Below are positions 1 to 23,495 of a stretch of DNA of 24,118 nucleotides, piece after piece. Both the position numbers and the translations under genes were made by a program. The notes under the pieces were generated by a model, which saw only the letters and a program-made list of their open reading frames with translations, was not told the DNA's origin and searched no databases. The DNA is taken from positions 1 to 24,118 of the IMG/VR virus record IMGVR_UViG_3300025151_000299; one strand, written 5' to 3'. Source of the stretch: a virus. How positions within the stretch are numbered: position 1 is the first letter of the stretch; each line of letters begins with the position of its first letter.

Positions 1-3000
1 ATTCAGTCGATGGATATGTTGGTATATCTATCACATCTATATCCCACTCTATTCTTGGCACTGGACATTGCCAAATATCGCTGTTGCATGGGCAATTTCC
101 TTCGCCTAATCCTCCGGGATTTAATTCAAAATCATCTCCTGGATAATCTGGTTTTCCTGATCTGCTTGAGGCTAGGTTTGGCACGGATGTTGGAACAGTC
201 AATGTAATGTTAGAAGAAATTGTTGCTCCTAAATTATTAAGCGATTCAGGATCACTGTCTATTGAATGTTTAAGACCCAGTACAGGAACACCGATATAAT
301 TAAATGACCAGTCTGTCTTATTAGTGTCCCAATCTTCGCCGCGTTTATAAAAGAATCCGTAACGATTGACATATTCTGTTCCACTAGTTCTTAAGAAATC
401 CAGTATTTCCCACCAATCATCTCCAACCCCTGGTCCAATTAAATTTTTATTTCCTGGTATTTGGGCAAAACAGTAACCTAAACAGCCGTTTGTATATTCT
501 GGGCTATTTGTATCAAAACCGTTTACATTATCATAACGCCAACTGTATTGAGTTCCACCCTCGTCTGTTGCCAACTGTTCACATTCCAATTCGCTGTTGG
601 TGGTTGTTATTGTTGGTGAGATACTAGTTCTCGATTGCTCATATGTGCAGTATATACAGTTACCCGTAACCGGTGGTTGTGCGCACGCATCCTCTACACA
701 CCCAAGTCCACCAGTCCATTCCCCAGAACAATCTGTCTCAATAGTTTCTGTGCAAACGCCATCAGTGCAACATCTTCCATATTGCTGAGATGGGTCACAT
801 GTTCCTTCGCAAGTAATATTCTCGCAATAAGTTCCATCCCCATAATACATTCCGTTTAAAAGGTCGCATACAAATTCTGGGAGATTGTTGCATTCGAATT
901 GACCATTCACACACCTACAACATGCTCCACATTCAAATGTTGGTGCATTCAATGAACAACTAGTATCTCCAGAGTCAACTCTTTCCTGACATGTAGAATC
1001 GTCAAATACACCACCAACAATATCGCACCAAGAAGAAGATACATCGTTCACACAGTATGGACCTTCTGGGGTGCAATAATTATCGTCTAAATCATAGCAA
1101 CAAGAACCTAGTTGTCCTGGAACATCACAGTCTGGTCTATCTTCACATGGATCAGTTGATACGGAACCTCCTGTGTTCTGACATTGGACTGGATCAAAGT
1201 TATCATAACAATCACCGTTTGCATAGCAACATGAATATGGCGTTTCATAACCAGTTTGACAATCACCTTCCGATATTCGTTCTTGACACTCTTCTAATAC
1301 ACTCCAAGAACCATTCAGAGCATCACATTCAACTTCAGCCATATCATCCAAACAATAATAGATAATTCCCCAGTCTGGATCTTCGGCTGAGTAGCAACAT
1401 GAACCTTCTGGAGCCTGTGGGTTTTGGTCACAAGTATAGTTGCAAGTCCCGTCTTCGGTGCAATTTGTATCAGTTCCCTGATGTACACCACCTAAAGTAT
1501 TACATATATCAGATGGAACATTGTTAAAGCATGTTGAGATCCATACCCCATCATACTCTTGGCATAAACAACATGCGCCCTCGTTACCTTCTGGTGGACA
1601 GTCCTGACAGTTTATCTGTTGACAATCTTGAGTATCATCCCAACTTCCACCTACTATGTTGCATAAATCTTCTGTCCAGTCTACACATACTATACAGTCA
1701 TCATCATCTTCGAAGCAACAAGAGCCTATGGGTGGGTTTATAATATTGCAGTCATAATTTTCACAGTTGTTCACATCTTCACAAGATTTACCTTCATGGA
1801 ACACACCGCCCAAAGTTTCGCATTCCTCTACGGTTCTTTCCTCACAGTAAATTTCAGAGTTTTGATCACAAAGACAACAAGCCCACACATCATCCGTTGG
1901 TGGTTCAAAATCGCACGGAGATGAGATGCATGTCTCATACGGATAGAATGTTTGACCGTCACCTTGACAGTTATAATAAAAAGTATCATTACATGTTGGA
2001 ATGCTTTCGTCACAACATGCTCCTTCGGTGTCTTGTGGTATGTCATCTACAGGACAACTCAACGACCCATCATTTGGATCTTGGTAACAACTCAGTCCTA
2101 TGTACCACTTTGATGGTTCCACTCTATTGATACATTCGTATTCTGTTTCATTGGAACATTGAAGTTCTTCTTCACCCTCTACCGAGTAACAACACCTAGC
2201 AATATCAAGTGGTTCTATACAATAGTAGTAAGGATCACCATCAATAGTTTCACCATCTTGATTTGGCCAGTATATATCCCTACCCCAACCAACACTACAG
2301 TCTGGTTGGTATACTCCAAGATAGGTTCCTTCGGTGCTTCCGTCTGGGAAAGGATTTGCTTCATTCGCCACTGCGCCAATAGGAACATTTTCTTCCCACT
2401 CTGAAAGACCGTCTTTTGAAAATATTCTTCTATACAGTATATTTCTTATATTTGTATATGGTGGATTAAGAGGATCATAATTTTCTTCAGATATGCTTAT
2501 TACTTCTCCCCAATTATCACCGGCAAGAGTTTGCGCAAACCAATAATGAAAGTCTCCTATTGGTTGATTTGGGTTTCTCCAGAAACTAGACGACACAGCA
2601 ACAACTTGCCTTTCATCTGCTTCGTCCAATCCCAATAAATCAAGGAATCCTCTTCCCCATAATTTTCTCTGTCCGGTAAGGAATGCTAATTCATCTTTAG
2701 ATGGAACATACCAAGGTTGACCCGTTGAGTTCCAACGTGAATGTGCTAACCACAGAGGTGTCTCCACAGTTGCAAAAGAGTCACAGTAAAAACGGCTTGG
2801 AACCCATTCATAATTAGGATCAGAGTAGTAGCACTCAGTACACATGGTTTCAATCGGACATGGCCAATTTCCACCCACAAGATCTCCGGGGCAATACTCA
2901 AACAGAAGAGAACAACTCGTAACCCCATATGTGCTTTGGAAACCGTTATTTCTGGTTAGGTAACCATTACCATCCCAATGTGATTTTCTTGTTGGTAATA

Positions 3001-4945
3001 ATGGTCCACCAGATGCAGGAGTCGCATCAATCGCAACGATTCCCCATCGTGGTATGTTCTCTCCCTCTGGACATGGGCATTGTGGTACTCCCGGTTCATC
3101 TGGATTACCACCATGACCATCATCGCATCCTCGTTCTTCACATGTTTTGTCTGGGCTGAATGAGCAGTTTCCACCAGTGTATTCCGAACAATCAGAAATC
3201 AGCACATTGTCTGCACATGTAGTATCACAACAACAAGAACCTACGGGTTCATTTGGAATTTCTTCACAGCATTTAACATCATTATCAAGTGGTCCAGCAC
3301 TACACTCAGTTCCCACGCCATAGAATATACCACCCATTATTTGACAATTTGGGGCGGTGAGTTCATAACAAGATGAACCAACACAACAAGCACCGTTTGA
3401 CGTAAACTCACAACAGTCTATATTCTCACAAAAGGTTGAATCACCCGCATAGTAACCACCTATCGAATCACAGAAGTCTTCATAAACACCATCTATACAT
3501 GTTCCAATATTTGTACAACACGCACCGATTGGATCTATGGAACCACACAAGGGAACACACGGAACATCTTCACACTTCATTTCAGGATAGAAGGTTCCTC
3601 CAAATCTCTCGCAGTTACCATCATTCACTGTATCAACACATAAATCATTACTGCAACATGCACCAACATCTTCAGTTCCACATGATCTTTCATCACATGT
3701 TGTCTCTGCTACAAAGACACCACCCAACGCATCACAACTCGCCTTTGTACCATAATCTCTACAATAAGAAACAAGAACAGAGGTTGTTTCTGTTTCTGTT
3801 CCTATACCCTCTAAGTCTCCACTACCGGGCACAATAGAAGTCTTTGATTCTAAAACCTGATAACAACATGATCCCTGAATAGAATCATCAAAGTAATTTG
3901 TTTCAAATGTATTGTTTGGTTCAAAGCAGAACCAACTCTCTCCAGAATCAACAGTCATACAGTTCACGGTGTGCATTGTTCCCCGAATGAATTCTGTTCC
4001 ACTTGTCCAACCGCCAGTAAAACCAGAAGGAACATCAAATGTTATACCGAGTTCTTCGCCAAAAGAATCTACATCAAGAGGACCAGGCTCTGGCTCATTC
4101 GTAGTATCAATCACAAAAGTTGCATAAAAAGCATTTCCATAATCCCCATCACCAGAGGGTTGAGAAGAGAGTTCTGTATTTGCTGATAAACCAGCACTTA
4201 ATGATGTTATTTTATTTAATGTCAGTCTTCTTGTGGTGTCGATATAAATTATATTGGAATCATCTACACTAAAATCTGTTGGGAATGAAATTGCATCTAT
4301 ATCACGAACCCTGTTACCTCTCACAGTGTTGGCAATATTCTTTAAGGTTGCAGAGATAGTCTGGCTGTCGTATGAGTAACCAGTCGCACCAATTTCATCG
4401 TAGTAAGTAAAGGTAGCACCTCTCGCAAAAGTGGTTCCACCTGTTCCATCTCTAGTTCCTGTGATGAACAATAATTCGTTAGGTGAACCGGCGACAACAG
4501 ATGATGTGCCACCAGCGAGATCTGCACTGATTCCTATGTCTTTATCGAATACCGTTACGTTATAATCATTTGAAAAGGTTATAGATTTAAATTCAATACT
4601 GTCAAATGTGACACTCTTCACTATTGAAAATCCATCTCCTAAATCTTTGTATTGAATTGTACCAGATGTACCGGCTTCTGGTGAGTTGCCAACGCCAAAG
4701 GAAAATCCTACATTAGCGAGTCCGGTATGAGTTTGTGCTGAAATTGTTACGGATAAAGTTCGTCCACCATCACTTAATGCATCACCAGTCCCTTCAATAG
4801 AAAGAACTCCCAAACCAGTAACACCAAATTCATGTGTCGCACCGGTTGGTCCAGTTGCACCAGTTGGACCAGTTAATCCCTGTGGACCAGATGGTCCAGG
4901 ATTCCCCGTTGGTCCGTATGCTGAATAAACTGAATAGTATGCCAT
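1..4945 (-). CDS. Giant cysteine-rich repeat tail fibre/adhesin, 3' end outside window
   Basis: This frame is open for 1648 codons, from ATG at 4945 to the left edge; I checked the Cys-rich part and C-terminal side codon by codon and found no stop. The start follows GAGG five bases upstream and lies 15 bases after the previous stop. Residues 11-36 are collagen-like Gly-X-Y triplets (GPTG, GPSG), a common phage fibre stalk. A beta-rich, cysteine-free stretch runs to about residue 325. From residue 358 come about 15 repeats of the form G-[AS]-C-C, C, C-x3-G-G-x-[FWY], C, C, in two blocks around a non-repeat domain (about residues 622-917). That domain has WYVPSKDEL, SSSFW and YWFAQ, recalling DUF1566 or C-type-lectin-like receptor-binding domains. 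About 125 cysteines are visible. Fibre role is inferred from the stalk and from position last in the fibre block. Receptor and total length are unknown. No close family is recognised. Confidence 0.85.
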   Translation of the reverse strand, partial: MAYYSVYSAYGPTGNPGPSGPQGLTGPTGATGPTGATHEFGVTGLGVLSIEGTGDALSDGGRTLSVTISAQTHTGLANVGFSFGVGNSPEAGTSGTIQYKDLGDGFSIVKSVTFDSIEFKSITFSNDYNVTVFDKDIGISADLAGGTSSVVAGSPNELLFITGTRDGTGGTTFARGATFTYYDEIGATGYSYDSQTISATLKNIANTVRGNRVRDIDAISFPTDFSVDDSNIIYIDTTRRLTLNKITSLSAGLSANTELSSQPSGDGDYGNAFYATFVIDTTNEPEPGPLDVDSFGEELGITFDVPSGFTGGWTSGTEFIRGTMHTVNCMTVDSGESWFCFEPNNTFETNYFDDSIQGSCCYQVLESKTSIVPGSGDLEGIGTETETTSVLVSYCRDYGTKASCDALGGVFVAETTCDERSCGTEDVGACCSNDLCVDTVNDGNCERFGGTFYPEMKCEDVPCVPLCGSIDPIGACCTNIGTCIDGVYEDFCDSIGGYYAGDSTFCENIDCCEFTSNGACCVGSSCYELTAPNCQIMGGIFYGVGTECSAGPLDNDVKCCEEIPNEPVGSCCCDTTCADNVLISDCSEYTGGNCSFSPDKTCEERGCDDGHGGNPDEPGVPQCPCPEGENIPRWGIVAIDATPASGGPLLPTRKSHWDGNGYLTRNNGFQSTYGVTSCSLLFEYCPGDLVGGNWPCPIETMCTECYYSDPNYEWVPSRFYCDSFATVETPLWLAHSRWNSTGQPWYVPSKDELAFLTGQRKLWGRGFLDLLGLDEADERQVVAVSSSFWRNPNQPIGDFHYWFAQTLAGDNWGEVISISEENYDPLNPPYTNIRNILYRRIFSKDGLSEWEENVPIGAVANEANPFPDGSTEGTYLGVYQPDCSVGWGRDIYWPNQDGETIDGDPYYYCIEPLDIARCCYSVEGEEELQCSNETEYECINRVEPSKWYIGLSCYQDPNDGSLSCPVDDIPQDTEGACCDESIPTCNDTFYYNCQGDGQTFYPYETCISSPCDFEPPTDDVWACCLCDQNSEIYCEERTVEECETLGGVFHEGKSCEDVNNCENYDCNIINPPIGSCCFEDDDDCIVCVDWTEDLCNIVGGSWDDTQDCQQINCQDCPPEGNEGACCLCQEYDGVWISTCFNNVPSDICNTLGGVHQGTDTNCTEDGTCNYTCDQNPQAPEGSCCYSAEDPDWGIIYYCLDDMAEVECDALNGSWSVLEECQERISEGDCQTGYETPYSCCYANGDCYDNFDPVQCQNTGGSVSTDPCEDRPDCDVPGQLGSCCYDLDDNYCTPEGPYCVNDVSSSWCDIVGGVFDDSTCQERVDSGDTSCSLNAPTFECGACCRCVNGQFECNNLPEFVCDLLNGMYYGDGTYCENITCEGTCDPSQQYGRCCTDGVCTETIETDCSGEWTGGLGCVEDACAQPPVTGNCIYCTYEQSRTSISPTITTTNSELECEQLATDEGGTQYSWRYDNVNGFDTNSPEYTNGCLGYCFAQIPGNKNLIGPGVGDDWWEILDFLRTSGTEYVNRYGFFYKRGEDWDTNKTDWSFNYIGVPVLGLKHSIDSDPESLNNLGATISSNITLTVPTSVPNLASSRSGKPDYPGDDFELNPGGLGEGNCPCNSDIWQCPVPRIEWDIDVIDIPTYPSTE
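683..2200 (-). repeat. Cys-rich protein repeats, second block (10 copies)
   Basis: Ten further copies with double-Cys starts at 2189, 2012, 1874, 1715, 1568, 1394, 1226, 1097, 917 and 767 (low plus-strand coordinate). Spacing is 129-180 bases, always a multiple of three. First residues vary (GACC, GSCC, GRCC, ARCC, WACC, YSCC), but the later Cys-x3-GG or NG-x-aromatic core is kept in most copies. The repeat resembles units I recall from secreted proteins of planctomycetes and other aquatic bacteria; a profile search would be needed to confirm any relation. Confidence 0.85.
3125..3874 (-). repeat. Cys-rich protein repeats, first block (5 copies)
   Basis: Five copies of a 43-70 residue unit inside the giant fibre gene. 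The GxCC starts read G-[AS]-C-C and lie at 3863-3874, 3653-3664, 3515-3526, 3383-3394 and 3227-3241 (the last has three Cys). Each unit continues with a Cys after a short loop, another Cys followed by GG and an aromatic or Asn residue, then two more Cys. The repeats are diverged, not recent duplications. The regular Cys spacing suggests small disulfide-bonded or metal-binding domains; that is inference. Confidence 0.85.
4838..4915 (-). repeat. Collagen-like Gly-X-Y tract, giant fibre
   Basis: Residues 11-36 of the giant protein are almost uninterrupted Gly-X-Y triplets rich in Pro and Thr (GPTG, GPSG, GPQG, GATG). In phage fibres such tracts form trimeric stalks. The tract sits right behind the short N-terminal segment, as in the neighbouring 381-residue protein. 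Confidence 0.85.
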
Positions 4946-4960
4946 CTAAACCTCATCTAA

Positions 4961-6106
4961 CTAGAATGGAGAAGTACCTGAATTTGTGGGCGTTTCAACA
5001 GTTATACCATACCAAAGTAATTCACCATCGTCGTTTTGTTTTCCGTTGCACACAAAATGATAATAATCTTCATTACTAGTTATATGAGGTTTGATACCGA
5101 ATGGGAAAATCCAATTGTTTGGCCAGATTTCGTTTGAACTAGAAAACCCGGTTAAACTTCTATCTTCCTTTGACTCTGCACCAATAATTTTCATTGTGAA
5201 TCCCAGAGAACTGTTTCTTCCAAATTTCTCATCAAAACTAGGACCAACAGATCCAGTAGCAGAATTATCCACAAATCTCACAAAAGGTTTTTCTTCGTCA
5301 AGTAATTCAGATCCCTTTATTGTTTCTTTAATTTTGTTTGCATCTACTACCCAAACATTTCCCCAACTTCTTTCTGCGACGGCTGTTTTCCCTAAAGCAG
5401 AATATGCCAAACGAGTTCCTGGACTGGTGTCAAAACAATATATCATAGTGTCTTCGTCCACACCACCAGTCATGTCTGCTGTTCCAAGTGAGTATGCAAC
5501 TTCGTGATATGATCTTATCTTTGCACCAACAGTTTGCGTATCTGGATCATACACTGTAGATGTTGCACCAGACAATTCGTTGAGATCAGAATATACACAT
5601 AACTGTCCTGTTGAACCACCTGTTGCCAAAAATCCATCGAAGGTGTTAAACGAAATTTCTAATTCGTTACCATCGTCTGACTCGGCTATGGAAACATCAC
5701 CAAATGCCTTGAATGTTCTTATCTTAAATGCATCACTCGCTGAATCAACACCAGTTGGTGTTCCTGTAGTAGAACCAACTGCTAAACTGAAACCTGTTAC
5801 ACCAATGGTATATGCGTTTGTTACCTCTATGTAAGAAACGCCTGTTGGACCATGAAAAGTACCACCATCAAAAGTAACACCAGAAGTAAAACGAGTAAAT
5901 ATGTGAGTGACACCACTTACCTGAATAAGTGTTACACCAAATGGACCAGTGGTTGCTCCAGTGATTGAAGAACCAGTTGGTCCCGTGGGTCCAGTCGGTC
6001 CAGTTGGTCCGGTTGCAGCAGGATACCCAGTTTCACCGGTTGGTCCAGTTGGTCCAACTGGTCCTTGGTCCCCTAATGCAAATTGATGGGAACTATATAC
6101 TGCCAT
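4961..6106 (-). CDS. Collagen-like tail fibre protein, 381 residues
   Basis: A fibre protein encoded just upstream of the giant Cys-repeat fibre. Residues 15-48 are collagen-like triplets (GPTG repeated), broken once by GYPAATG. The N-terminus, MAVYSS, resembles the MAYYSV of the giant protein, which may mean both attach to the same partner; this is inference. The rest (about 50-381) is beta-rich, with Thr, Ser and Gly and few cysteines; I recognise no family. The ATG at 6106 follows the previous stop by six bases, with AGGA about nine bases upstream. No promoter is seen in front, so it is probably co-transcribed with the upstream fibre genes. It could be a short fibre or an adaptor for the giant fibre. 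Structural role is likely, exact role unknown. Confidence 0.85.
5972..6064 (-). repeat. Collagen-like Gly-X-Y tract, 381-residue fibre
   Basis: Residues 15-45 of the 381-residue protein consist of two runs of GPTG/GPVG triplets separated by a short break. At DNA level this is a set of near-identical nine-base units (variants of GGTCCAGTT on the plus strand), prone to slippage and length change. Confidence 0.85.
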
Positions 6107-9259: not shown

Positions 9260-12046
9260 CTATAGTTCACTATCTGCTTCGTAGTGGAACGCTATTATAT
9301 CTAGGGGAGCAAACCCACCAACGATATGTATTTCTGCACCGATTGTTGAATCTGAACTTATTCTTGCTGCATTGTCCTTCACAGACGCCCTTTTGCCACC
9401 CAACAATCCTTGTGTTCCTGCTGTTCTTGTTAAATCTTTTTGTTCTGTGACATTAAATGCGTCAGCAGTTCTTCCGGTGGGTGACCATATCGCAAGAGAT
9501 GTCGGTGTCATTCTCATTGGAACAGGGAATCTATGGACATATCTACCATTTTGTGGAGTCATGAATTGTATGGAATTTGTATCTGCTGCTCTTGTAGTTA
9601 TCATCGTAGAATTACTTGGATATTTGTTATTCGGATAACTGTTGTGATAGTATCTCTCACATCTTCTCAACTCTTCTTGCTTATCAATTTCTGGGTAATT
9701 TCTAGTCCCATTACCCTCTTCTAGTTTCACCTGAGCAATCGATAGTTTTCCGGGATGTCCGGTGTGTCCTGCGCCGTATCTAGGCATGTCTGTTGTATAG
9801 AAAGCGATTGCATTGTAAGAATTATCATTAGAAGCAGTTCTACCCACGGGTGTTACAAATGTCGTACTATATCTTTGCCACGAAGTTGTTGGTAAGAATT
9901 CACCAATATCCGTTTTAGTTTCGGACGAACCATCTACGCTCTTCAAGAAAGATACACCAACAGTTGCTCCCGCTCCGTATGATTGGTCACTCTTATGGTA
10001 GAGGGATACAGTCATTAGTCTGTTTGAAAGCGAGTTTGAATCCTCAAGTCTTTGCTCAATTCTATGGAAGTAACCATGAGTAGACCCAACAGCACCAGTC
10101 GCATAGGTTCCCTTTATTTCTGCGTAATACTTTGGTGAACCGGGAACATCGTCTTGGACATCGTTGAATGTTTGTCTCTGAATTGAGAAGTCGTAAGTCG
10201 CACCCACGGCGGTTGCAGATGCGCCGGATGTTCTTCTCCATCTATCAGCGAAGTAAGTATCAGCGGTTCCTGTGTAGGCGGTGTCGATACCGATACCTCT
10301 TCTCCAATAGTAGAAACTACCATTGATTAGACTCGCATGAATATCCCCTCCACCCCCAGCGTAATTTCTATTCTGACCGGCAGGCGCTCCTTGGGCATAT
10401 TCATTTGGTCGAGTTGGCTGAGCGCCTCCGATATGGACTACTGCGTTCTTGGCATCCAAAATAGTACAAATTGGCTTGTACCAACCACCCACAATATCAA
10501 ACAAGTCATTATCTGCACTTAATCCACCATAAGTAGTTCCTAGAACATGGTGACCGGTATTCATACCAGCAAAACTGATATTATCATTTCCGGTAATTAG
10601 TCCAGAACTAATGACCGTAACGGTGTTTGCAGAAGTATTTTCTATACCCACAATACCTACAACCGTTTTAGCCGTGTCGTCTTGTCTATTAGGGTCTGTA
10701 ACATCATTCAGCCTATTTGCTAATGTGTAACCAGTAGAATCTATTGAACTGTGAGCAACCACATCACCGGAGGTAAATCCATGTGTATTTGTAATTGATA
10801 TTCTTGATGTATGATAGATATCGGCTGTTCCCAACGCACCGCCTGTTGCTCCATAGTAAGCAATTGTCGCGCTATCTGGAGTAATCTCTTGTCCTCTGTA
10901 TGAAAGGATTAAACCAGCGGTTTCACCTAATGCATATAGAACTGGTTTAGAAACTACTTTATCGTAAGTTAAACCCTTTCCAGAAGGCTGAGCGTTTGTA
11001 ATCATACCCTCACCGGTTGTTGACAGGTAATATATGCAACCAGGTGATAATTGTTGACCCGAACCTATTACACTTGAGAAATCGCCTCTGACTTCACCAC
11101 TAAATGTGATATCAAAGGTGTTACCATATGCTCCACCACCGTTCGTTACTCCCATAACATTTGATACAATACCAACCACTTCAGAGAGATAAGATTCGAA
11201 TGTTGTCCCATCACCACCAGTAGCACCAGCATGCGCCTTTAGATAATTGGTGCCATCAAACCGAACAACATTACCGAAGGTAAATCCATGATTCGCCTGT
11301 TCAATTCGTTTCTTATTTACACCACTTGTGAAATGAACTGTGCCATCATCTAAAATTTCTGCTACCTGATTTCTATTAGCACCCTTGTGTATGTCTGAGG
11401 AATCTCTTTCAGCCATATTATAGATTCTTATAGTGTTTGCATTCAACCCATAGGGGTATGTGGCAGTCATGCCGGGATCCGTTGTAAAACCTTGTCCCGG
11501 TCCACAGAAAACTAAGTGGTTGTTGGATCCACTGGACCCGAATTGGAACCTAGTTCCTTCCCAGCGATCAAACCTTAAATCCTGTTCTGTAAACCAATAC
11601 CCATTATTGTTCAGCCAATAAGGACCGGTGAACCCGTTAAGGGAAAATGTTTGACCTGCTTCTGCCCAACCACCATCTCCTGTATAACCACCAGTAGAAT
11701 TTCCTATGACAATACCAGAGGTGGATCCTACTAAAAAAGAACCTTCATCATCACGGTTAAGGTTCAAGATATCTGAACTTATAAACACTCCACCACAGAA
11801 CCCAACGTCTTCGGTGAATGTAACACCCTTTTGTATGATGTCGTTGAGTGCGATATTAAGTTTGCCGAGAGAGGTAGCAACATTTGCAGTGATACCACCA
11901 CCAGTTGCTGAACTGATACCAAGATCATATATTCGTAGATAATTTAACTTCTGAATGATATCGTCATTTGTTTTTGTGCGCCAAAATTCAAATGTATCAG
12001 AAAGTTCAACATCCTGTATTTCGAAATTGTTATTATTTACTGGCAT
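9260..12046 (-). CDS. Tail fibre protein with repeated modules and jelly-roll-like segment, 928 residues
   Basis: First gene behind the second late promoter, with AGGA seven bases before the ATG. The N-terminal 80 residues may be the attachment part (inference). Residues 247-384 and 416-540 are two copies of a module with HGF, G[ND]VV, 'V.GIV' and, in the first, 'YYLSTTGEG'. Residues about 574-785 look like a carbohydrate-binding jelly-roll domain of phage fibres: NGSFYYWRRG, FADRW, MTVSLYHKS, SWQRYSTTF, AQVKLEEGN. It ends in ELRRCERYY (792-800), a variant of the CqRYY motif that I recall following such domains. The remaining 130 residues are a beta-rich tip. Role is inferred: a receptor-contacting fibre or fibre connector. 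No single named homologue is recognised. Confidence 0.88.
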   Translation of the reverse strand: MPVNNNNFEIQDVELSDTFEFWRTKTNDDIIQKLNYLRIYDLGISSATGGGITANVATSLGKLNIALNDIIQKGVTFTEDVGFCGGVFISSDILNLNRDDEGSFLVGSTSGIVIGNSTGGYTGDGGWAEAGQTFSLNGFTGPYWLNNNGYWFTEQDLRFDRWEGTRFQFGSSGSNNHLVFCGPGQGFTTDPGMTATYPYGLNANTIRIYNMAERDSSDIHKGANRNQVAEILDDGTVHFTSGVNKKRIEQANHGFTFGNVVRFDGTNYLKAHAGATGGDGTTFESYLSEVVGIVSNVMGVTNGGGAYGNTFDITFSGEVRGDFSSVIGSGQQLSPGCIYYLSTTGEGMITNAQPSGKGLTYDKVVSKPVLYALGETAGLILSYRGQEITPDSATIAYYGATGGALGTADIYHTSRISITNTHGFTSGDVVAHSSIDSTGYTLANRLNDVTDPNRQDDTAKTVVGIVGIENTSANTVTVISSGLITGNDNISFAGMNTGHHVLGTTYGGLSADNDLFDIVGGWYKPICTILDAKNAVVHIGGAQPTRPNEYAQGAPAGQNRNYAGGGGDIHASLINGSFYYWRRGIGIDTAYTGTADTYFADRWRRTSGASATAVGATYDFSIQRQTFNDVQDDVPGSPKYYAEIKGTYATGAVGSTHGYFHRIEQRLEDSNSLSNRLMTVSLYHKSDQSYGAGATVGVSFLKSVDGSSETKTDIGEFLPTTSWQRYSTTFVTPVGRTASNDNSYNAIAFYTTDMPRYGAGHTGHPGKLSIAQVKLEEGNGTRNYPEIDKQEELRRCERYYHNSYPNNKYPSNSTMITTRAADTNSIQFMTPQNGRYVHRFPVPMRMTPTSLAIWSPTGRTADAFNVTEQKDLTRTAGTQGLLGGKRASVKDNAARISSDSTIGAEIHIVGGFAPLDIIAFHYEADSEL
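10427..11308 (-). repeat. HGF-GDVV fibre modules, two tandem copies
   Basis: Residues 247-384 and 416-540 of the 928-residue protein share the order HGF, G[ND]VV, a 'GIV' strand and a later Gly-rich turn followed by KP (SKPVLYALG; WYKPICTIL). The copies are well diverged. A further copy opens the next gene. Confidence 0.75.
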
Positions 12047-15096: not shown

Positions 15097-16566
15097 TCAT
15101 ACTTCCTGCAAGAAAACAAAGTTACTTACTAATTCGTTCTTCATTGTTATATTAGAGTCCAGATAATTTATGTATAACACATCTCCTGATCCTGGTTTTA
15201 TATCAGCAGTGGCAAAACTACTTTGAATATTGTAATATTTTGTACCGCTTGCAGCACCAAATCCCTTACGAATAGCATATGTATTCAGGAATTGACCACC
15301 AGTACCATTACCACCTGTTCCCGTTTCTCTGACTATTTCTAGAACGGCTTCGTTTACTCCGGTATAACCTCTTGGTCTTCCAAAAAAAGTAACCAAAGCC
15401 TGATGCTTGACATCATCTATGTCCGTAATACCATCACCCAAATTAAATGTTGGGCTAGAAGTACTATAATCAAATGCTACACTGCTAACACTAGAACCAG
15501 TCTGTCCCGTTATCCGCATTCTCTGAGAGAGTCTATAATTCTTTTTTACATCGGTCAGTAGTTCACTTCCAGCAGGCAGACTTACATTACTCTTGTTTAA
15601 GATATAATCCTTGGAAAGTCCATAGAAGTTAAATTCTCTTTGCCTGACAACGGAAAATAAGTCAGCAGTATCAACCCTTATGTTATACATTATTTTCTCA
15701 ATATGGAAATAACTTTCTGCTGGAACATAAGATCTTCTCGTATTCTCAGGTGATATGTTTAAACTTATCTTTGCCTCTACTTCACTCACGGTGTGTGTTG
15801 TTGGAGTATCATCTAAACTGACAGTGGCATAATTATATCCACTACCGGAATTGGTTACAGATATACCATTCACAACATTATTGTTCACAGATAAAGTTAC
15901 TGTTGCTTCCTTATTACCATCACCAATGACAGTCAGTGTTGGGCTGTTAGTGGAGAAACCTATTGTCTCACTCAGGTCTATGGTTGCACTTTCTATTTTT
16001 CCACCAAGTTGTCTTTCCACATTGTACTGGGATCTGTCTGTTGTTCCAACATTCGCCCTACGGACAGCCGCTTGATCGAGAATCTTGACCGGCATATAAT
16101 CGACACTATTTACAGTCTTTAGAAAATCCTTTAGGTGTTTATCGATTGTATAGACATATTTCCATAAATATCCATCATTTGTTCGGAAAGGAACCGAAGA
16201 CCTTCCCGTGGGTTCGACATTAGACTGATTTGCACCACTCGCACCTAAATTAGAATTTTCAAGACAGATATAAACATTATCTTGTGAGTTTTTTACATAG
16301 TATTTCTTATCTCTAAGATCTATATCTGTTTTATATCTATCATATAAAGTGTCAGAGGTCCAGTCATACCTTTTGATTACCTTGGCGACTTCTGTGGGCA
16401 TTACCTTTCTAGCGTATGAAGAACAAACCTTTGCATTTCTCTCTGCTTCAATAGAGTTTGACTGATATGTATCTGGAGAATAGCCCATGAAGAAAAATTG
16501 GTCGCCCAAATTTTCAATGTAGTTAGTAGCAAAATTTCTTCTTAGTGATTTATATGATCTGGCCAT
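15097..16566 (-). CDS. gp8: Baseplate wedge protein gp8
   Basis: In T4, gp8 is a dimeric baseplate wedge component bound to gp7 and gp10. The N-terminal 160 residues match the family pattern: RYDW (66-69), NVYICLEN (97-104), VEPTG (117-121) and DGYLWKYVY (131-139). T4 gp8 has about 334 residues, so this one is about 150 longer. Part of the extra length may be a small beta module with GISVTNSGSGYNYATV (233-248), a motif I recall from marine phage structural proteins. The start has GAGG eight bases upstream and lies 11 bases after the previous stop. Position after gp25, gp6 and the gp7-like gene supports the call. Assignment rests on motifs and gene order, not on an alignment. Confidence 0.82.
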   Translation of the reverse strand: MARSYKSLRRNFATNYIENLGDQFFFMGYSPDTYQSNSIEAERNAKVCSSYARKVMPTEVAKVIKRYDWTSDTLYDRYKTDIDLRDKKYYVKNSQDNVYICLENSNLGASGANQSNVEPTGRSSVPFRTNDGYLWKYVYTIDKHLKDFLKTVNSVDYMPVKILDQAAVRRANVGTTDRSQYNVERQLGGKIESATIDLSETIGFSTNSPTLTVIGDGNKEATVTLSVNNNVVNGISVTNSGSGYNYATVSLDDTPTTHTVSEVEAKISLNISPENTRRSYVPAESYFHIEKIMYNIRVDTADLFSVVRQREFNFYGLSKDYILNKSNVSLPAGSELLTDVKKNYRLSQRMRITGQTGSSVSSVAFDYSTSSPTFNLGDGITDIDDVKHQALVTFFGRPRGYTGVNEAVLEIVRETGTGGNGTGGQFLNTYAIRKGFGAASGTKYYNIQSSFATADIKPGSGDVLYINYLDSNITMKNELVSNFVFLQEV

Positions 16567-16577
16567 TTAAATTTCCT

Positions 16578-19500
16578 CTAGTATTGAATGCCCCCACTTG
16601 GACCGTCTGGTAATCCGCGTAACAATGTGTTTCCTGTTCTTCCTGCAACAAAAATGTTTGGCGATTGCAACAATGCGCCTGGAGCATTTGCTGTAATCTT
16701 ATTAATATCTATGTTTATTGTTACGATGTCTTGAATCGTGATATTACCGAATGACACTGCACCTGCTGTTGCATATGAACTTTGTTCTGGGGAACCACTT
16801 GGTCCAGTTATTCCTGTTGCCCATAGGTTTGGATGGTTAAATATCATCCAATATGGATAACCAAGAACATCAGCAGAAGTATATCCATCACCCTGTGCAA
16901 ATGACGCTCCAGACTTGCCGTATGGGAATCCTCTATTACTATGAGTTGTTCCACCGGGAGAATTTTCAGGGGGTAGTGCATGAACATTCCCATTGCTACC
17001 CTCTCCAGTTGCCTGCGGGTTATATCCTTCTGGGTATAAGTCTGCTAGGTTCTCGTTATATCGTAAGTTTTGAATAGTATTAAATGTGTAGGGCATGTAG
17101 TGACCTATGACAGCAGTCTCTAACGACTGCACATCATCTTCTGGTATCACACCACCAACTACATCGTCCAATCTCACATTACCAAAGAATTGCAGACCCA
17201 AAGGATGCATGAAGTCTAATAATGGTTTTTCATATTCATCAACTAATATGACAGTTGGACCATCAGCAGTTGTTCCCGTTGAGCCGGGGGCTGCCACATC
17301 AAGAAGATATGAATAATCTTGCCATATCTTGCTATCTTGAATTACTGCACGACCACTTAAAACTCTATCGTCGGGTGAGCCACCATATCCCGAATACTCT
17401 CCGTCTTGGTCAGCCTCATTACCGGGTGTTTCGTTAACATCTGTTTCATCTGTCGTCTTAAGAATGTAAACAGTTTCGTGATCGAATTCTGTAAACCTTT
17501 TGGTTTTTGCTAATGTAATAACTCTCTTAGAAGTTTGTGCGGTGTCATTTACATTTACCTTTTCATAGAGAGATATGAAATCACCCATACCTTCACCGCC
17601 GAATGCTATTCCGTCGAACAAGTCTTTGGGCACAAAATCATTTCCGTCTATGGAAAATAACATTGCAATACCAGCCCCATCATTAAGCCTCACATGTTCA
17701 GAATCCATACCGGGGGCAGAAACCAATAATGAGTTGTTAGATAAATCTACCTTATGTCCGAATTCGAATAATTTAAGAGCATCCAGTAAGTTAATGTTCT
17801 GAAACACTACTGGATCTATATCTGAAAAATCTACCTTTTGATTGAATGTCCATGACTCAGAGGAATCTAGAGAGTAAATAAACACTGAACCAAAAGTAAA
17901 GGGGTTTACCCCATCTATCAATTCTTTATCTCTCGGACATCCAATCGCAACATAATTATCATTTATGGAAACAGAGAAACCGAATAAACTATCACTGTCT
18001 AATGTCTCGTTGTTTATTTGATTACTGGAATCTATAGTCGTGTTTAAATCCCATTGACCAGTTTCAAAGTTTTTCTTGTATATGTAAACTTTTCCATGAA
18101 CAGCGGCAACATTTCCAAGTGCTTCTCTTCCCGGCGCACCAATCACTAACCAATTGTCATTAGCGTCTATCGAATAACCAAATCCATCATTTGTGGTGTG
18201 ACTGCTTTGAGTTATTGTTTGTCTAAGAAGCACTGTTGTCAGAATGCCATCATCATTTTCTATGGGTTCATAAACATATACCTTTGGTGATATGTTTGTA
18301 ATATATTCAGATTTATGAGAAGATCTCGATACGAATAATTCTTTACTGTTTGATGCTAATTCAGAGCCAAAAAATTCGTTATTAACTTCATCCCCGGTTA
18401 TGCCCTTTGGAATTTCTAGTAGCGGTAGATTCCGTGGTTCTGATAAATCTTCAGCATTCAGTATTACAACTTTACCCGAATCCGTAACCAAAACAGGACC
18501 GTGGTCAACATGCTGCAACACATTTGCCGCTGCTGATCCCACGAAAGCATAGTTTCCTATTTTTTGTGGTGTTGCTGGTTTTATTGCATTTTGACGAATT
18601 TCTGAATCTAGGTGGTCAAGGACATCAGTAAGGTGTGGTCGAGTGAATACATTTGTGGTCACATTTGGCTGAGATGGATCTTCATGCGTAATTTTATGAA
18701 TCACTGAGTCCCCGGTATTGTCGGGTTTAGGTGCTGTGTATATGAGTGTTGTGTTTTCATCAATATTGTTAACAGATACAAAACGGTATATACCAAGATC
18801 AACATACTCATCAACGTCTATAAATGAGTCTGCATATTCTTCGTTTACATTCAGATCATAAAAGCATGGTGGATACTGACTGAAATCACAATCAGGAACT
18901 TCAAGATAACTTCTACTTAATGTTCGACTCTCTATTCCATCATCACCATAAACATCATTATAGTAAGATTTCTCACTGCCATCAGCGAGCATAGTTCTAC
19001 TGTAACTACTCAGTAATCCATATGTTTCGTGTATTTGGTTTGCGAAATATTGTCCACCGGAGACAGCACCAAGATAGATTGGTCGATTATGAAGATTGGG
19101 GTCTGGGAGTTGAAGGAAATATGGACTACTGGAATCTCCAGAATATTGATTAGTCCAGAAATCAAAAGTGGCACCCGTATTGTCCGTTAGTATCTGGTTT
19201 GCTTCGGAAGTAAGCACTAATTCATCATCCCCATAACTACTACCAAACGGGTTTTCGACAAATATACTTTGATAGGTTAGGTCACTGCCAGTGAAATCGG
19301 GTATACCGATGGTCCCGATGGCAACTCGCTGGTCTTGATCCATCACAAAAGCAGGTAGGGACTTAATAACATCCTTAAGAGGATCTGCTCCAAAACTCAT
19401 TCTTGGTAAGAAGTGAGGAAGTTTAAATTCATCTACTATTGAATAGTTTACAGTAGTCTCATTACCGTCAGAGGTCTTCCATACTCTATCGATATTTAAA

Positions 19501-20582
19501 TTATGAAGTTGAAATTCGCACGGTCTGCCATTACAAAGTAAGCGGTTGGTGTTTCCGTATGATGTAAAGAAGTCACCGTATTCATTGTTATCACAACTAG
19601 TTTGTGTTTCTCCCCCCAAAACATTTGCAGTCCAAGAGTGACCCGTGCCAGGATAATTAACTGAGTTGCATTCTGATTCTGGAATGTCCGTAACATCAAT
19701 TCCATCGCAAGGAGCAGAAGTACCAGCACAGTAATTACATGTTCCTATCGTGAGCGTGCATGTTCCACCTTCTCCAATTGGATCATCTCTTAAAATTTCA
19801 CTTAACCAGTTATCCATTTCAGGTGGATGTGATGACCAACACAAACCGTTCAAACCATTTGGATCTAAACAATCACCTTCGGTTCCAAGATCTTCCCAGT
19901 TGAGGGGTCCATATACATCTGACCATTCTACAAATGATAAAGTTGCTTCACCGGCAAATCCCAAGGAGGGCCATCCTTTTTGTTCGGCTCTTGTCCCCAT
20001 TCCATAATATTCTCGAATGAGTCCCCGTTGCATAAACACTGCACCAGTTACAGGGTCTTCCACACGATATTCTATTGTTTTACAAACCCCACCTGTTCTA
20101 CCATTACAATATTCGACAGAATTTACACCATAGTGTTCAATTGAAAGTGCAATATTTGGACTTAATAAAACATGTCTGGGTGGTCCAGCCTCAGAGTTCT
20201 CACTACTACCGTTTGGAAGAGTGTGTCTTCTTCTGACTGTTGTATTGACAGAAGACAAATTCGGAATAAACTCATCTGGATAGAGTTCTAATTCTGGTCC
20301 CCATTCATCAGGCTGATAGTAAATATGCGGGTGTAATCCCTGTCCCGTTTCTTCAGCAGAAGGCTGAGAAAACATATTCATTGGCTTCATGAAGTTTGGG
20401 TTTCGTCTTATTGGTTTGCAATAACTTTCACATGCAACACCAGATACTCTTGGTGGAGAATTGTATAGGTAATAATCATGTCTACCGGGCCAGTACCAAC
20501 CTAATGAATCCTGTGCAGCGAGATCAAACATAGTTTGATTATCATAAGGTGTGCCACTAAAACTATCACTCGAATATAACAT
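16578..20582 (-). CDS. Large virion protein with Cys clusters and FG-GAP beta-propeller, 1334 residues
   Basis: The start overlaps the stop of the gp7-like gene by one base (TAATG), with GGAG eight bases upstream. Residues 51-355 hold many scattered cysteines (CESYC, CTLTIGTCNYC, NGRPC); another pair follows at 564-573. Residues about 674-1041 form a beta-propeller of FG-GAP type. Clear blades start at 800 (FGYSIDANDNWLVIGAPG), 867 (FGFSVSINDNYVAIGCP) and 940 (FGHKVDLSNNSLLVSAPG); weaker ones lie near 674, 737 and 998. Each ends in a 'VYIY'-like strand. The C-terminal part contains a short GITGPSGSP run. FG-GAP repeats are best known from integrins and bacterial exoproteins. The gene lies between gp6/gp7-like and gp8, so a baseplate-arm role is plausible. 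Function unknown; no whole-length homologue recognised. Confidence 0.87.
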   Translation of the reverse strand: MLYSSDSFSGTPYDNQTMFDLAAQDSLGWYWPGRHDYYLYNSPPRVSGVACESYCKPIRRNPNFMKPMNMFSQPSAEETGQGLHPHIYYQPDEWGPELELYPDEFIPNLSSVNTTVRRRHTLPNGSSENSEAGPPRHVLLSPNIALSIEHYGVNSVEYCNGRTGGVCKTIEYRVEDPVTGAVFMQRGLIREYYGMGTRAEQKGWPSLGFAGEATLSFVEWSDVYGPLNWEDLGTEGDCLDPNGLNGLCWSSHPPEMDNWLSEILRDDPIGEGGTCTLTIGTCNYCAGTSAPCDGIDVTDIPESECNSVNYPGTGHSWTANVLGGETQTSCDNNEYGDFFTSYGNTNRLLCNGRPCEFQLHNLNIDRVWKTSDGNETTVNYSIVDEFKLPHFLPRMSFGADPLKDVIKSLPAFVMDQDQRVAIGTIGIPDFTGSDLTYQSIFVENPFGSSYGDDELVLTSEANQILTDNTGATFDFWTNQYSGDSSSPYFLQLPDPNLHNRPIYLGAVSGGQYFANQIHETYGLLSSYSRTMLADGSEKSYYNDVYGDDGIESRTLSRSYLEVPDCDFSQYPPCFYDLNVNEEYADSFIDVDEYVDLGIYRFVSVNNIDENTTLIYTAPKPDNTGDSVIHKITHEDPSQPNVTTNVFTRPHLTDVLDHLDSEIRQNAIKPATPQKIGNYAFVGSAAANVLQHVDHGPVLVTDSGKVVILNAEDLSEPRNLPLLEIPKGITGDEVNNEFFGSELASNSKELFVSRSSHKSEYITNISPKVYVYEPIENDDGILTTVLLRQTITQSSHTTNDGFGYSIDANDNWLVIGAPGREALGNVAAVHGKVYIYKKNFETGQWDLNTTIDSSNQINNETLDSDSLFGFSVSINDNYVAIGCPRDKELIDGVNPFTFGSVFIYSLDSSESWTFNQKVDFSDIDPVVFQNINLLDALKLFEFGHKVDLSNNSLLVSAPGMDSEHVRLNDGAGIAMLFSIDGNDFVPKDLFDGIAFGGEGMGDFISLYEKVNVNDTAQTSKRVITLAKTKRFTEFDHETVYILKTTDETDVNETPGNEADQDGEYSGYGGSPDDRVLSGRAVIQDSKIWQDYSYLLDVAAPGSTGTTADGPTVILVDEYEKPLLDFMHPLGLQFFGNVRLDDVVGGVIPEDDVQSLETAVIGHYMPYTFNTIQNLRYNENLADLYPEGYNPQATGEGSNGNVHALPPENSPGGTTHSNRGFPYGKSGASFAQGDGYTSADVLGYPYWMIFNHPNLWATGITGPSGSPEQSSYATAGAVSFGNITIQDIVTINIDINKITANAPGALLQSPNIFVAGRTGNTLLRGLPDGPSGGIQY
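17460..18563 (-). repeat. FG-GAP (integrin-type) beta-propeller repeats
   Basis: Segment coding for residues 674-1041 of the 1334-residue protein. Three strong blades repeat F-G-x-[SK]-[IV], an N-D-N or S-N-N turn, then [IV]-G/S-[AC]-P, about 70 residues apart. Three weaker blades flank them. Six or seven blades would close a propeller. Confidence 0.8.
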
Positions 20583-21250
20583 TATTCTTTCTCCGGCTTA
20601 GACAATGATGTCCCACCAACTGGTGTACCAGGTGTTCCACTAGATGCTCCAGGTTGCCATATCCCATCTGATAACCTAAGTAATCTTGTTTTGGGATACT
20701 CCATTTTAACTTGGTACAAGTCTGTTCCAATTGGTGCAAACAAACTACGAAAGAAAAAATTGATTGCTTCTTCAGTGGATTTAGAAAGATATAGATCACG
20801 GACATTTCTCAAAAGAGTTCTAACATTAATTGCAGAGTTAGATGGATCAGACCAATTGAGTCTAGCACTCTCTGGATAATTTTTTGCAATCATATTTTTG
20901 TAATACTTCAAAAACTTATCTTCAGCGAGATCCAAATCTCTCAACTCGTTGAGTTTGCCGATATTGTTTTCTTCATGAAGCCAATCATAGAATGTCTGAA
21001 TGAAGAAAGTAAAGTTGGTGTATTTATCACGAACATATTCAGGTAAGGCTTCATCGACAAAAAAGTTAAATTTCTTTTTGCCGTAAGTGACTCCATGCTG
21101 TTCAATCTCGGTAAGAGATCTGGTAGAAAATTCTTGTCCCAATGGCAAATCCTGCAAACGCGAATCTTCATACGCTGCTTTCAGGGGATGTCGGTCTACC
21201 AGTTCACCTGTGTTCCCGTCATCTATGCCTTGTATTACAAAGTCTACCAT
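20582..21250 (-). CDS. gp7-like baseplate wedge core protein, 222 residues
   Basis: Residues 69-91 (LPEYVRDKY, then FIQTFYDWL) and 147-171 (LRNVRDLY, SKSTEEAINFFFRSLF) follow the same order as a C-terminal region of T4 gp7 as I remember it (there YSTKGIEASYKFLF). That region takes part in the wedge core bundle with gp6 and gp25. SDGIW at 194-198 and a Gly/Pro/Ser-rich tail end the protein. T4 gp7 is about 1032 residues, so this would be the core part alone. The start overlaps the gp6 stop by one base (TAATG), and its own stop overlaps the next start in the same way, so gp6, this gene and the 1334-residue gene are coupled. The motif also occurs in other marine phage virion proteins, so the gp7 name is probable, not certain. 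Confidence 0.8.
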   Translation of the reverse strand: MVDFVIQGIDDGNTGELVDRHPLKAAYEDSRLQDLPLGQEFSTRSLTEIEQHGVTYGKKKFNFFVDEALPEYVRDKYTNFTFFIQTFYDWLHEENNIGKLNELRDLDLAEDKFLKYYKNMIAKNYPESARLNWSDPSNSAINVRTLLRNVRDLYLSKSTEEAINFFFRSLFAPIGTDLYQVKMEYPKTRLLRLSDGIWQPGASSGTPGTPVGGTSLSKPEKE

Positions 21251-23007
21251 TAGATCTCTTCTATCGTTATTGGGTGGTCAACGCTTGGCCAATTAGTCTC
21301 TCTTTGGAATACTATATTCCTCTTTGAAACTACATTCTTGCTTCTTGGTTCGTAATAAACAGTAAAGTTTTCGGATGCTTGCACATCCCTCAAGTATATA
21401 AATCCTGTTTCGGAATCGTATGTGCCAACATTCGAAATAACCAATGATGTTGTGCCGTCTGCATTATTGCGATATAAATCTATAACACCTTCTTCACCGT
21501 TCTGAATATAGAAGACAGAACCCTCGGACTCATAGTCTGCATGTGAAAATTGTGTTGAGTAAATAACCTGCCCAAAATCATTTTCGACTGCATTCTGTGA
21601 TTTTAGGGATTGACCGAAGTCAAACAGATAGGAACCGGATGGCGATATATTTTCCGTATCTTGTGATATGATTAAGAAATAGTCAAGACCAACAATGCCA
21701 TTTTCTACCTTCAATATATTTGAATTAATTGCCTCGAACGATAAACCTTCTTTCAGAACACCAAACTGGTAGTTCGAAGACATATGAGTCCTCACTAAGT
21801 CTCTAATTTCCTCTACACTTTTCGCTGTGCTAAATTTATCATATTCTATTATAAAATTACGGAAATGTAAAGTTGTGTAGACCGGGGAAACATATTCTGG
21901 AATGATACTTATAACAGATTTGTTTTTAAGAACATCTATAATTTTCTGTGTGTCAATTGCTGAATTGGATGTGGTACTAACAAATACCCTACCATATAAA
22001 GGTGGATTACTTTCCTCTCCACCCCAAACACTCACTGATGTAACACTTCTCAGATCCTTTTTTATAAGCACATCATAATCTAGTTTTGTAACTGCTCTAT
22101 TTTGAGACTGGAAGAATGCTGGAGCGTAGTATTTAATATCATCGGCAGTGTCTTGTCCAGAACCACCTCTTGATGGAATTACTGTTTTATTAATACCTAT
22201 GCTAGATGTTGATTGATTGAATAACACCACGCCGTTATCGGCTTCTCCATTTCCACCCAACAAATAATCTTTGGTGACAATTGCATCATTGCTAATAGCC
22301 CTTCCAAATACACCGTCCCCAAATTTAACTGTATAGAAATTGTCGTATGTGCTATCCACAAAATAAATCTTATCATCGCCACTCAAACCAGAGACAATAT
22401 TAGAATCTAGCAACGACCAATCCTCTGCTGTAACACCATCGTTGACTGTAACCACCAACGTGTCGGTGTCCACATTCGTATTCGAAATTATGGTGCCACC
22501 TTCACCCCGAACCAAGCCCCTACTACCGTAGACCACTGCATTTGCAGTTACTCCAGCACCAAGAGTGAAACCGGTTGCTCCCCAGAAAAACCACTTGACT
22601 CCGTTAGCGTTAGCAAGTTGAGTTCCTCGCACAATGGACTCTTCACTTGCACTTTCGTTCTTGATCTCTAAAGTTGCTCTAGCACATGTTATTGATTTAG
22701 GAACATAACCAAGCATCTTTGACAGGGAAACTATATTGTCTCTCTGTGTTGCACTATCCAAGAACATTTCATTTGCGATCATATTCGCATAGAATGAGTA
22801 GTACATCGTATTATACGATAGTACATCTAAAAGAATAGAAAGAGCAGAGCCGTCAAAGTTATAGTCAGTGAAAAGATCTTGCTTCTGTAAAAATGACTTC
22901 AAACTAGATTTTATATCGTTAAAATCTAGTTTAGTAAAATCGACACTTCCAAGAGTCGTGTTTCTTGTGTTGCTTGTGGTTGAAGAACCAGTATAGTCTA
23001 CTGCCAT
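21250..23007 (-). CDS. gp6: Baseplate wedge protein gp6 (baseplate J-like)
   Basis: gp6 forms the inner ring that ties the wedges of the baseplate together; the homologue in simpler contractile phages is protein J. Residues 27-105 show the conserved N-terminal block: LDFNDIKSSLKSFL, FDGSALSILLDVLSYN, NEMFLDSATQRDNIVSL and LGYVP. Residues about 280-350 show the second block: GGSGQDTADDIKYYAP, FFQSQNRAVTKLDY and VWGGEESNPPLYGRVFV. Length is 585 residues against about 660 in T4. The ATG lies two bases after the gp25 stop, with AGG inside the last gp25 codons as ribosome binding site. It directly follows gp25, which it contacts in the wedge core bundle. Confidence 0.93.
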   Translation of the reverse strand: MAVDYTGSSTTSNTRNTTLGSVDFTKLDFNDIKSSLKSFLQKQDLFTDYNFDGSALSILLDVLSYNTMYYSFYANMIANEMFLDSATQRDNIVSLSKMLGYVPKSITCARATLEIKNESASEESIVRGTQLANANGVKWFFWGATGFTLGAGVTANAVVYGSRGLVRGEGGTIISNTNVDTDTLVVTVNDGVTAEDWSLLDSNIVSGLSGDDKIYFVDSTYDNFYTVKFGDGVFGRAISNDAIVTKDYLLGGNGEADNGVVLFNQSTSSIGINKTVIPSRGGSGQDTADDIKYYAPAFFQSQNRAVTKLDYDVLIKKDLRSVTSVSVWGGEESNPPLYGRVFVSTTSNSAIDTQKIIDVLKNKSVISIIPEYVSPVYTTLHFRNFIIEYDKFSTAKSVEEIRDLVRTHMSSNYQFGVLKEGLSFEAINSNILKVENGIVGLDYFLIISQDTENISPSGSYLFDFGQSLKSQNAVENDFGQVIYSTQFSHADYESEGSVFYIQNGEEGVIDLYRNNADGTTSLVISNVGTYDSETGFIYLRDVQASENFTVYYEPRSKNVVSKRNIVFQRETNWPSVDHPITIEEI

Positions 23008-23009
23008 TT

Positions 23010-23495
23010 TTACCTATCTCTCTTTATGTTTACATTTACTTCCTCTACGGTGTCTAGAGTTTTGAATTGAACTTGAACTAAGGGTTCACCTCGTCTAGTT
23101 TTTTTGATCTCTATATTCGACCCTGCTGCTCTGGGTTCAAATCTATTTATTGCATTTTTTGCTTCGTGTATAAATGATACCGTATTTACACCACCAAACG
23201 TGGTTTCCATTTTCTTTGGCTTTTTGAGGGTGGAGTTTTTCCAGAAAACATCTGCACCATCTTGCTCAAACATAAGTTTTCTTGTTCTACCATCAATGTT
23301 ATGCTGAAATGGTCGCTCATATCTATGAGTCTGCAAAATATTGGATACAGATTGTTTTATCGCATCTGCATCAGTCTTTAGCAATATATCACCGCTTGCT
23401 CCAAGTTCTGAATTTGTGAACACAGGAGAAGGCTTGAAATTCAAATCAAAATCAATATATTTTGGTTTTAGTGTTTCGTTTCGTATTTCTGACAT
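23010..23495 (-). CDS. gp25: Baseplate wedge protein gp25 (sheath initiator)
   Basis: gp25 belongs to the GPW/gp25 family, which also includes TssE of type VI secretion. It joins the wedge core bundle and nucleates sheath assembly. Seen here: IDFDLNFKPSP (14-24), GDILLKTDADAIKQSVSNIL (35-54), RYERPF (58-63) and the EPR motif at 120-122, with the preceding helix IHEAKNAINRF. It has 161 residues against 132 in T4; the extra length includes a basic loop near 85-100 (KKPKK). The ATG at 23495 has AGGG seven bases upstream and a late promoter box 18 bases upstream. It is therefore the first gene of the baseplate transcription unit. Confidence 0.95.
   Translation of the reverse strand: MSEIRNETLKPKYIDFDLNFKPSPVFTNSELGASGDILLKTDADAIKQSVSNILQTHRYERPFQHNIDGRTRKLMFEQDGADVFWKNSTLKKPKKMETTFGGVNTVSFIHEAKNAINRFEPRAAGSNIEIKKTRRGEPLVQVQFKTLDTVEEVNVNIKRDR

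Follow-up and report, generated by a model that had tools for sequence, protein, structure and literature searches.

Tandem six-cysteine units in a putative tail-fiber protein of uncultivated T4-like phages

Phage tail fibers are normally stiffened by intertwined trimeric β-structure, and phage proteins are generally regarded as poor in disulfides, being made in the cytosol. In the Agrobacterium phages Milano, 7-7-1 and OLIVR4, disulfides stabilize the released particles, as seen by cryo-EM (PMC10491603, PMC10811340, PMC12796354). The virion disulfides of Milano are established, and its stability drops once DTT reduces them (PMC10491603, PMC10811340); a similar disulfide network is found in 7-7-1 (PMC12796354). 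In virions of the Milano type, Cys accounts for 2.1% of the structural proteins, is distributed over capsid, neck, sheath and baseplate, and mainly forms inter-subunit links. The phage described here resembles Milano in having proteins with excess Cys, which are proven in the virion for Milano and predicted for ours. In contrast, the Cys residues encoded by our metagenomic fragment and its relatives are concentrated in tandem units of tail-region proteins, the other proteins being ordinary, and no Cys excess was found throughout capsid, neck, sheath and baseplate. The known disulfide-rich virions rely on subunit cross-links, not on tandem units in a fiber. What appears to be new here is that a tail fiber, itself of a known kind, would consist of a bead employed extracellularly by bacteria. 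We found no published account of such arrays in phage fibers among open-access journal articles.

The closest described fibers are those of T4-like marine phages (Kyanoviridae: Pelagibacter phage HTVC008M and Synechococcus phages S-CAM1 and S-CAM3), whose gp6 is 29-31% identical to that of the window, i.e., the whole stretch of 24,118 bases analyzed, which is a complete IMG/VR record of a virus fragment. Both share gp25, gp6 and wedge genes followed by large structural and fiber genes. Unlike the window, HTVC008M and AG-345-P14 have neither Cys-rich fibers nor six-Cys units within about 20 kb on either side of gp6. All genes of the window are encoded by the minus strand. They make up a tail cassette of the T4 type in the order gp25-like, gp6, baseplate wedge-like, FG-GAP, gp8-like wedge, two phrog_358-like genes and a phrog_4492 tail fiber gene, which ends with a protein with a weak Tail Collar match, a small collagen-like fiber and the Cys-array protein (Table 1). 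The adjacent gp6 and gp25 wedge genes, together with further baseplate genes, are those of a T4-type contractile tail; PHROGs baseplate wedge models matched the gp25, gp6-adjacent and gp8-like proteins. In tblastn, the window gp6 matched 2334 phage records, the closest being that of HTVC008M (31% identical). The position of the Cys-array gene in the fiber part of the cassette and its collagen-like leader are those of a tail fiber or adhesin. A first-pass annotation of this DNA had noted that the gp25 neighbor lacks Cys and that the other virion proteins contain few. This holds, as the other window proteins have 0-5 Cys (0-0.7% in the baseplate proteins), with the exception of the FG-GAP protein. 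In the latter, the N-terminal third carries a cluster of many of the Cys residues (CTLTIGTCNYCAG...CDG...ECN), which may be a stray Cys-rich insertion.

Table 1. Features of the window and the parts of its Cys-array protein
Feature	Position	Strand	Basis or remark
Baseplate wedge gp25-like protein, 0 Cys	23010..23495	-	PHROGs baseplate wedge
Baseplate wedge gp6, phylogenetic marker	21250..23007	-	Pfam Gp6-like_1st, E 2.9e-16
FG-GAP-repeat protein, 1334 aa, 17 Cys	16578-20582	-	between baseplate genes
Baseplate wedge subunit, gp8-like	15097..16566	-	phrog_438
Tail fiber protein	9260..12046	-	phrog_4492
Tail protein, 1045 aa	6113..9250	-	weak sub-threshold match, phage Tail Collar domain
Small collagen-like fiber protein, 381 aa, 3 Cys	4961..6106	-	adjoins Cys-array gene
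Cys-array tail-fiber-type protein ORF, C-terminus missing (contig end)	2..4945	-	
Collagen-like leader (aa 11-37) of nine Gly-X-Y triplets, probably for trimerization	4835..4915	-	PHROGs tail-fiber matches
N-terminal spacer/domain, aa 45-330, nearly devoid of Cys (first at aa 329)	3956..4813	-	Cys positions
Block 1, five six-Cys units, aa 358-608	3122..3874	-	profile and AlphaFold
Cys-poor middle domain (aa 610-915) with the motif WYVPSKDEL...HYWF...YRRI	2201..3118	-	present only in window and L081
Block 2 (aa 916-1430), ten units, most with 6 or 8 Cys	656..2200	-	profile
C-terminal region, aa 1431-1648, to contig end	2..655	-	L081 homology

The Cys-array gene had been described as one frame of 1648 codons running off the edge, with about 125 Cys. 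Indeed, it starts with ATG, has zero internal stops and is open at the contig end, its 3′ end lying beyond the record, and the exact count is 125 Cys in 1648 aa (7.6%). The product is acidic, with a calculated pI of 4.05. The 15 GxCC-type anchors are located at aa 358, 428, 474, 518, 569, 916, 975, 1021, 1074, 1123, 1181, 1237, 1280, 1340 and 1390. Their number and their spacing of 43-70 residues are as first reported, except for an unmentioned gap of 347 residues between units 5 and 6. Rather than forming a single stalk, as had been assumed, the 15 homologous six-Cys units are arranged in two blocks split by a domain of roughly 300 aa. The N-terminus is collagen-like, but the term stalk was an overstatement for a segment of nine triplets that matches Pfam Collagen at E 0.003, below the cut-off. 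The PHROGs tail-fiber matches of the protein are carried by this segment only.

The sole full-length homologue of the protein is L081 (1841 aa), encoded on contig G001 and also truncated by the end of its own contig; its C-terminal region is longer than that of the window protein. The N-terminal spacer has a full-length homologue in L081 and a weak match in L006. Within block 1, aa ~393-550 correspond to a module conserved in about 40 contigs, while the units at either end of block 2 (aa 916 and aa 1390) are weak profile matches. The middle domain yielded no match in the Pfam profile search even at E 10, and its model from two sequences was unusable (pLDDT 33). By eye its motif is reminiscent of a DUF1566/Lcl_C lectin-like domain or an Lcl-type collagen adhesin, an assignment that we rejected as no profile matched.

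The units follow the pattern G[A/S]CC-x(3-30)-C-x(7-8)-C-x3-[G/N]G-x-[F/W/Y]-x(4-6)-C-x(4+)-C. In 200 composition-preserving shuffles of aa 321-1500, zero units exceeded 5 bits compared with 14 in the real sequence, a score with some circularity, since the window units themselves had served to build the profile. This result and, independently, the recurrence of the unit in other contigs and genomes argue that the array did not arise by chance. The Cys part had no family match in Pfam, NCBIfam or PDB sequences, the PDB profile search with it returned nothing significant, and the units matched no PHROGs model. Three tblastn queries with units retrieved zero matches from the INPHARED isolate phages. 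As a control, the low-complexity filter left such queries unmasked and the window was findable at E 5e-8 in a database of INPHARED size, so that this absence is meaningful at that sensitivity. The full-length protein used as a query matched no viral contig because its peptide patterns lie mostly outside the conserved parts.

To what extent the array is maintained can be read from its comparison with L081. The two proteins are 45% identical over 1504 aligned residues, yet 110 of the 118 aligned Cys are kept (93%), whereas the next best residue, Gly, is kept at 64%. Moreover, 11 of the 15 window units resemble the L081 unit at the same position far more closely than they resemble any other unit of the window protein, which indicates that the array predates the split between the two phages and has been kept unit by unit. 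No tandem repeat was found at the DNA level within the array; the unit copies are therefore old. The proposal that the diverged copies reflect long-standing selection is borne out by these comparisons.

A degenerate DNA pattern of the unit matched 96 stretches in IMG/VR, and the profile from the window units detected multi-unit ORFs in most of them. The module profile matched 49 of 50 contigs, all of which had been preselected by the unit pattern. Mapped contigs carry 1-9 Cys-rich genes each within the tail region, in several cases 5-9 different ones side by side, while their remaining proteins contain 0.6-1.4% Cys and their capsid, tube and sheath genes are not Cys-rich. The Cys content reaches 17.5% in a related contig compared with the 7.6% of the window protein, and the Cys-rich proteins include a G017 protein with 359 Cys in 3078 aa and a G018 protein with 296 Cys in 2745 aa. 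T4-type gp6 is present in 14 of 24 array contigs. In a gp6 tree obtained by a quick search, 12 of these 14 sequences, including that of the window, form one group (SH-aLRT 95); one of the two outliers has a long branch. When longer gp6 contigs were picked regardless of arrays, the module was found in only 1 of 22, some of which may end before the fiber genes, and the array thus marks a subset. The array had been regarded as unusual; for its lineage it is rather a hallmark, and it appears to be the mark of a little-known T4-like clade, not unique to the window contig.

Giant proteins encoded upstream of gp25 in L141/G017 (27627-33671; 2015 aa, 233 Cys) and L157/G018 (45164-53398; 2745 aa, 296 Cys) begin with CCC.CGD.PC, hardly match the unit profile and represent a second class. 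The complete array proteins of L003, L024, L054 and L063 share the end motif L-x-G-x-C-x-W-[IM]-x-C...CPYPLC, likely a C-terminal cap. Two apparent TGA codons in the array of G025 are situated beyond the open frame, where the contig ends, and seem to reflect a frame error.

A pair of phage units was also used as query against 84,980 genomes. The 30 loci retrieved belong nearly all to Planctomycetota, mostly Phycisphaerae or Phycisphaerales, with two in Candidatus Eisenbacteria. The profile from the window units alone detected 113 bacterial units above 5 bits. Compared column by column, phage and bacterial units agree in the six Cys and in the GG-x-aromatic and G-D-x-T/S-C motifs; both are arranged in tandem. 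The Planctomycetota GACC units, which are unnamed and for which we found no Pfam entry, have the same six-Cys spacing as the phage units. However, the bacterial proteins have signal-peptide-like N-termini, as judged by eye, and nearly always six Cys per unit (85 of 87 segments), whereas those of the phages lack a signal peptide, bear collagen-like leaders and often contain 7-8 Cys per unit. Weak matches to dockerin or to trypsin-like domains are seen in some of the bacterial proteins. A different kind of Cys-rich cell-wall protein, the YTV proteins, is well known in planctomycetes (PMC8567305). The search of phage and bacterial sequences suggested in the first-pass annotation thus gave matches in both IMG/VR contigs and Planctomycetota genomes. 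The unit constitutes a true domain family that is widespread among related phages and among exported Planctomycetota proteins.

The AlphaFold model of block 1, based on 43 aligned sequences, has a mean pLDDT of 83 and about 90 over most units. Each unit is modeled as a β-hairpin, a short helix and a strand (ββαβ), the units being connected by flexible joints; with a pTM of 0.39, their relative placement is not fixed by the model. A common fold, for whose absence the repeats had been proposed to be checked, was thus predicted for each unit. The fold search of the unit model against PDB and BFVD gave nothing at E ≤ 0.001 (best in PDB, ADAM17, E 0.22). The phage unit segments contain 6 (186), 7 (108) or 8 (25) Cys; because units were selected by profile, the Cys positions look more invariant within them than they are. 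In the window, the Cys per unit are 6-7-7-7 in block 1 and 6-8-8-8-6-6-8 in block 2, and the 7-7-7 run is part of the module conserved in many contigs, with one extra Cys per unit. Even counts make up 65% of the phage units overall, equal to the Poisson expectation. Among neighboring units there are 41 odd-odd, 57 mixed and 88 even pairs; odd units beside odd ones would fit bonds between neighbors, though this is confounded by shared descent. In 319 rows, Cys positions were lost together only three times, C3 with C5, a number too small for pair assignment.

On these grounds, the Cys-array protein is probably a host-attachment protein (tail fiber or adhesin) of disulfide-locked beads, belonging to a contractile-tailed phage of the T4 type from an uncultivated clade. 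The collagen-like leader would trimerize the protein, the six Cys would form three disulfides inside each unit, and the extra Cys may bridge parts of one unit or neighboring units. Since phage proteins are made in the cytosol, oxidation would be placed at lysis, when the particles meet oxidizing surroundings. The product would be a string of hard, protease-resistant beads displaying variable loops, chiefly C2-C3 (about 3 to 30 residues), that could bind the host surface. The place in the tail cassette, the wide unit family, the selection on Cys, the confident unit fold, the non-enriched CxxC and rare His, the six Cys of almost all bacterial segments and the even counts in block 2 support this reading, and the virions of Milano (PMC10491603, PMC10811340) and 7-7-1 (PMC12796354) provide a precedent for disulfides. 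Against it count the 7 Cys in about a third of the phage unit segments, owing in part to the conserved three-unit module, which make an even count no rule, the inflated near-invariance of the Cys, the low pTM and the lack of a fold match in PDB or BFVD at E ≤ 0.001. This reading depends above all on the state of the Cys residues in the virion.

The alternative between disulfides and metal binding had been left undecided in the first-pass annotation, and our data favor the former. Zinc or iron-sulfur modules would fold in the reducing cytosol, where phage structural proteins are made, with no need for oxidation, and could accommodate the odd Cys counts of many phage units; some other phage fibers do use metal sites. 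However, CxxC pairs, a common feature of zinc ribbons and rubredoxin, do not exceed expectation (8 seen, 12.4 expected), and His is rare (7 in 1180 residues), so that metal binding is unlikely. The sequence does not fit a zinc-ribbon or rubredoxin-like site, there were zero metal-binding Pfam matches and nothing significant in the PDB profile search, and the same six-Cys unit is used in exported bacterial proteins. We give a similarly small chance to the strings being a surface decoration or matrix that cross-links tail-tip proteins into a protective net, instead of a receptor-binding fiber. Such a net would fit the several contigs that encode 5-9 different Cys-rich proteins side by side; an unpaired seventh Cys could cross-link chains, and the collar and baseplate of Milano are cross-linked (PMC10491603, PMC10811340). 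Yet long arrays have even counts, which speaks for bonds within units, and the genes for capsid, tube and sheath of the mapped contigs are ordinary in Cys. That the gene lies at a contig end and that the unit also occurs in bacteria could indicate a chimeric contig, a Planctomycetota gene joined to a phage contig or a decaying passenger. This is highly improbable and in practice refuted by G001, which has the same gene order with proteins 45-55% identical to those of the window; the Cys conservation, the positional match of units and the intact frame also speak against it.

That the unit recurs in many related environmental phages and in secreted Planctomycetota proteins suggests that the viruses of this clade attach by way of disulfide-hardened fibers. 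It is conceivable, though doubtful, that this would be a deep clade infecting Planctomycetota (Phycisphaerae) with fibers made of the hosts' own exported bead, and that oxidation at lysis of hundreds of thiols per fiber set acts as a maturation switch from floppy chains to stiff adhesive rods. The tail periphery of an entire clade of environmental T4-like phages seems to be made of a thiol-rich bead that bacteria employ extracellularly. This opens the question of how a cytosol-made chain with over 100 Cys avoids mispairing and when it is oxidized, and makes redox control of adsorption testable. The unit, absent here from Pfam and PHROGs, can serve as an annotation marker for many unassigned giant phage proteins and as a lead to the hosts of these phages.

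In the 122,976-base contig G021, whose tail proteins contain over 700 Cys, the sole tRNA gene in 123 kb is a tRNA-Cys (anticodon GCA; L153:13549-13622, minus strand). We considered tRNA-Cys as a general companion of the arrays and rejected this, as it is found in one contig only and six other array contigs carry other tRNAs. The same contig G021 encodes a phage protein in which a glutamine synthetase domain follows an N-terminus with weak similarity to thioredoxin/glutaredoxin (CGWC; L149:12761-14251, minus strand).
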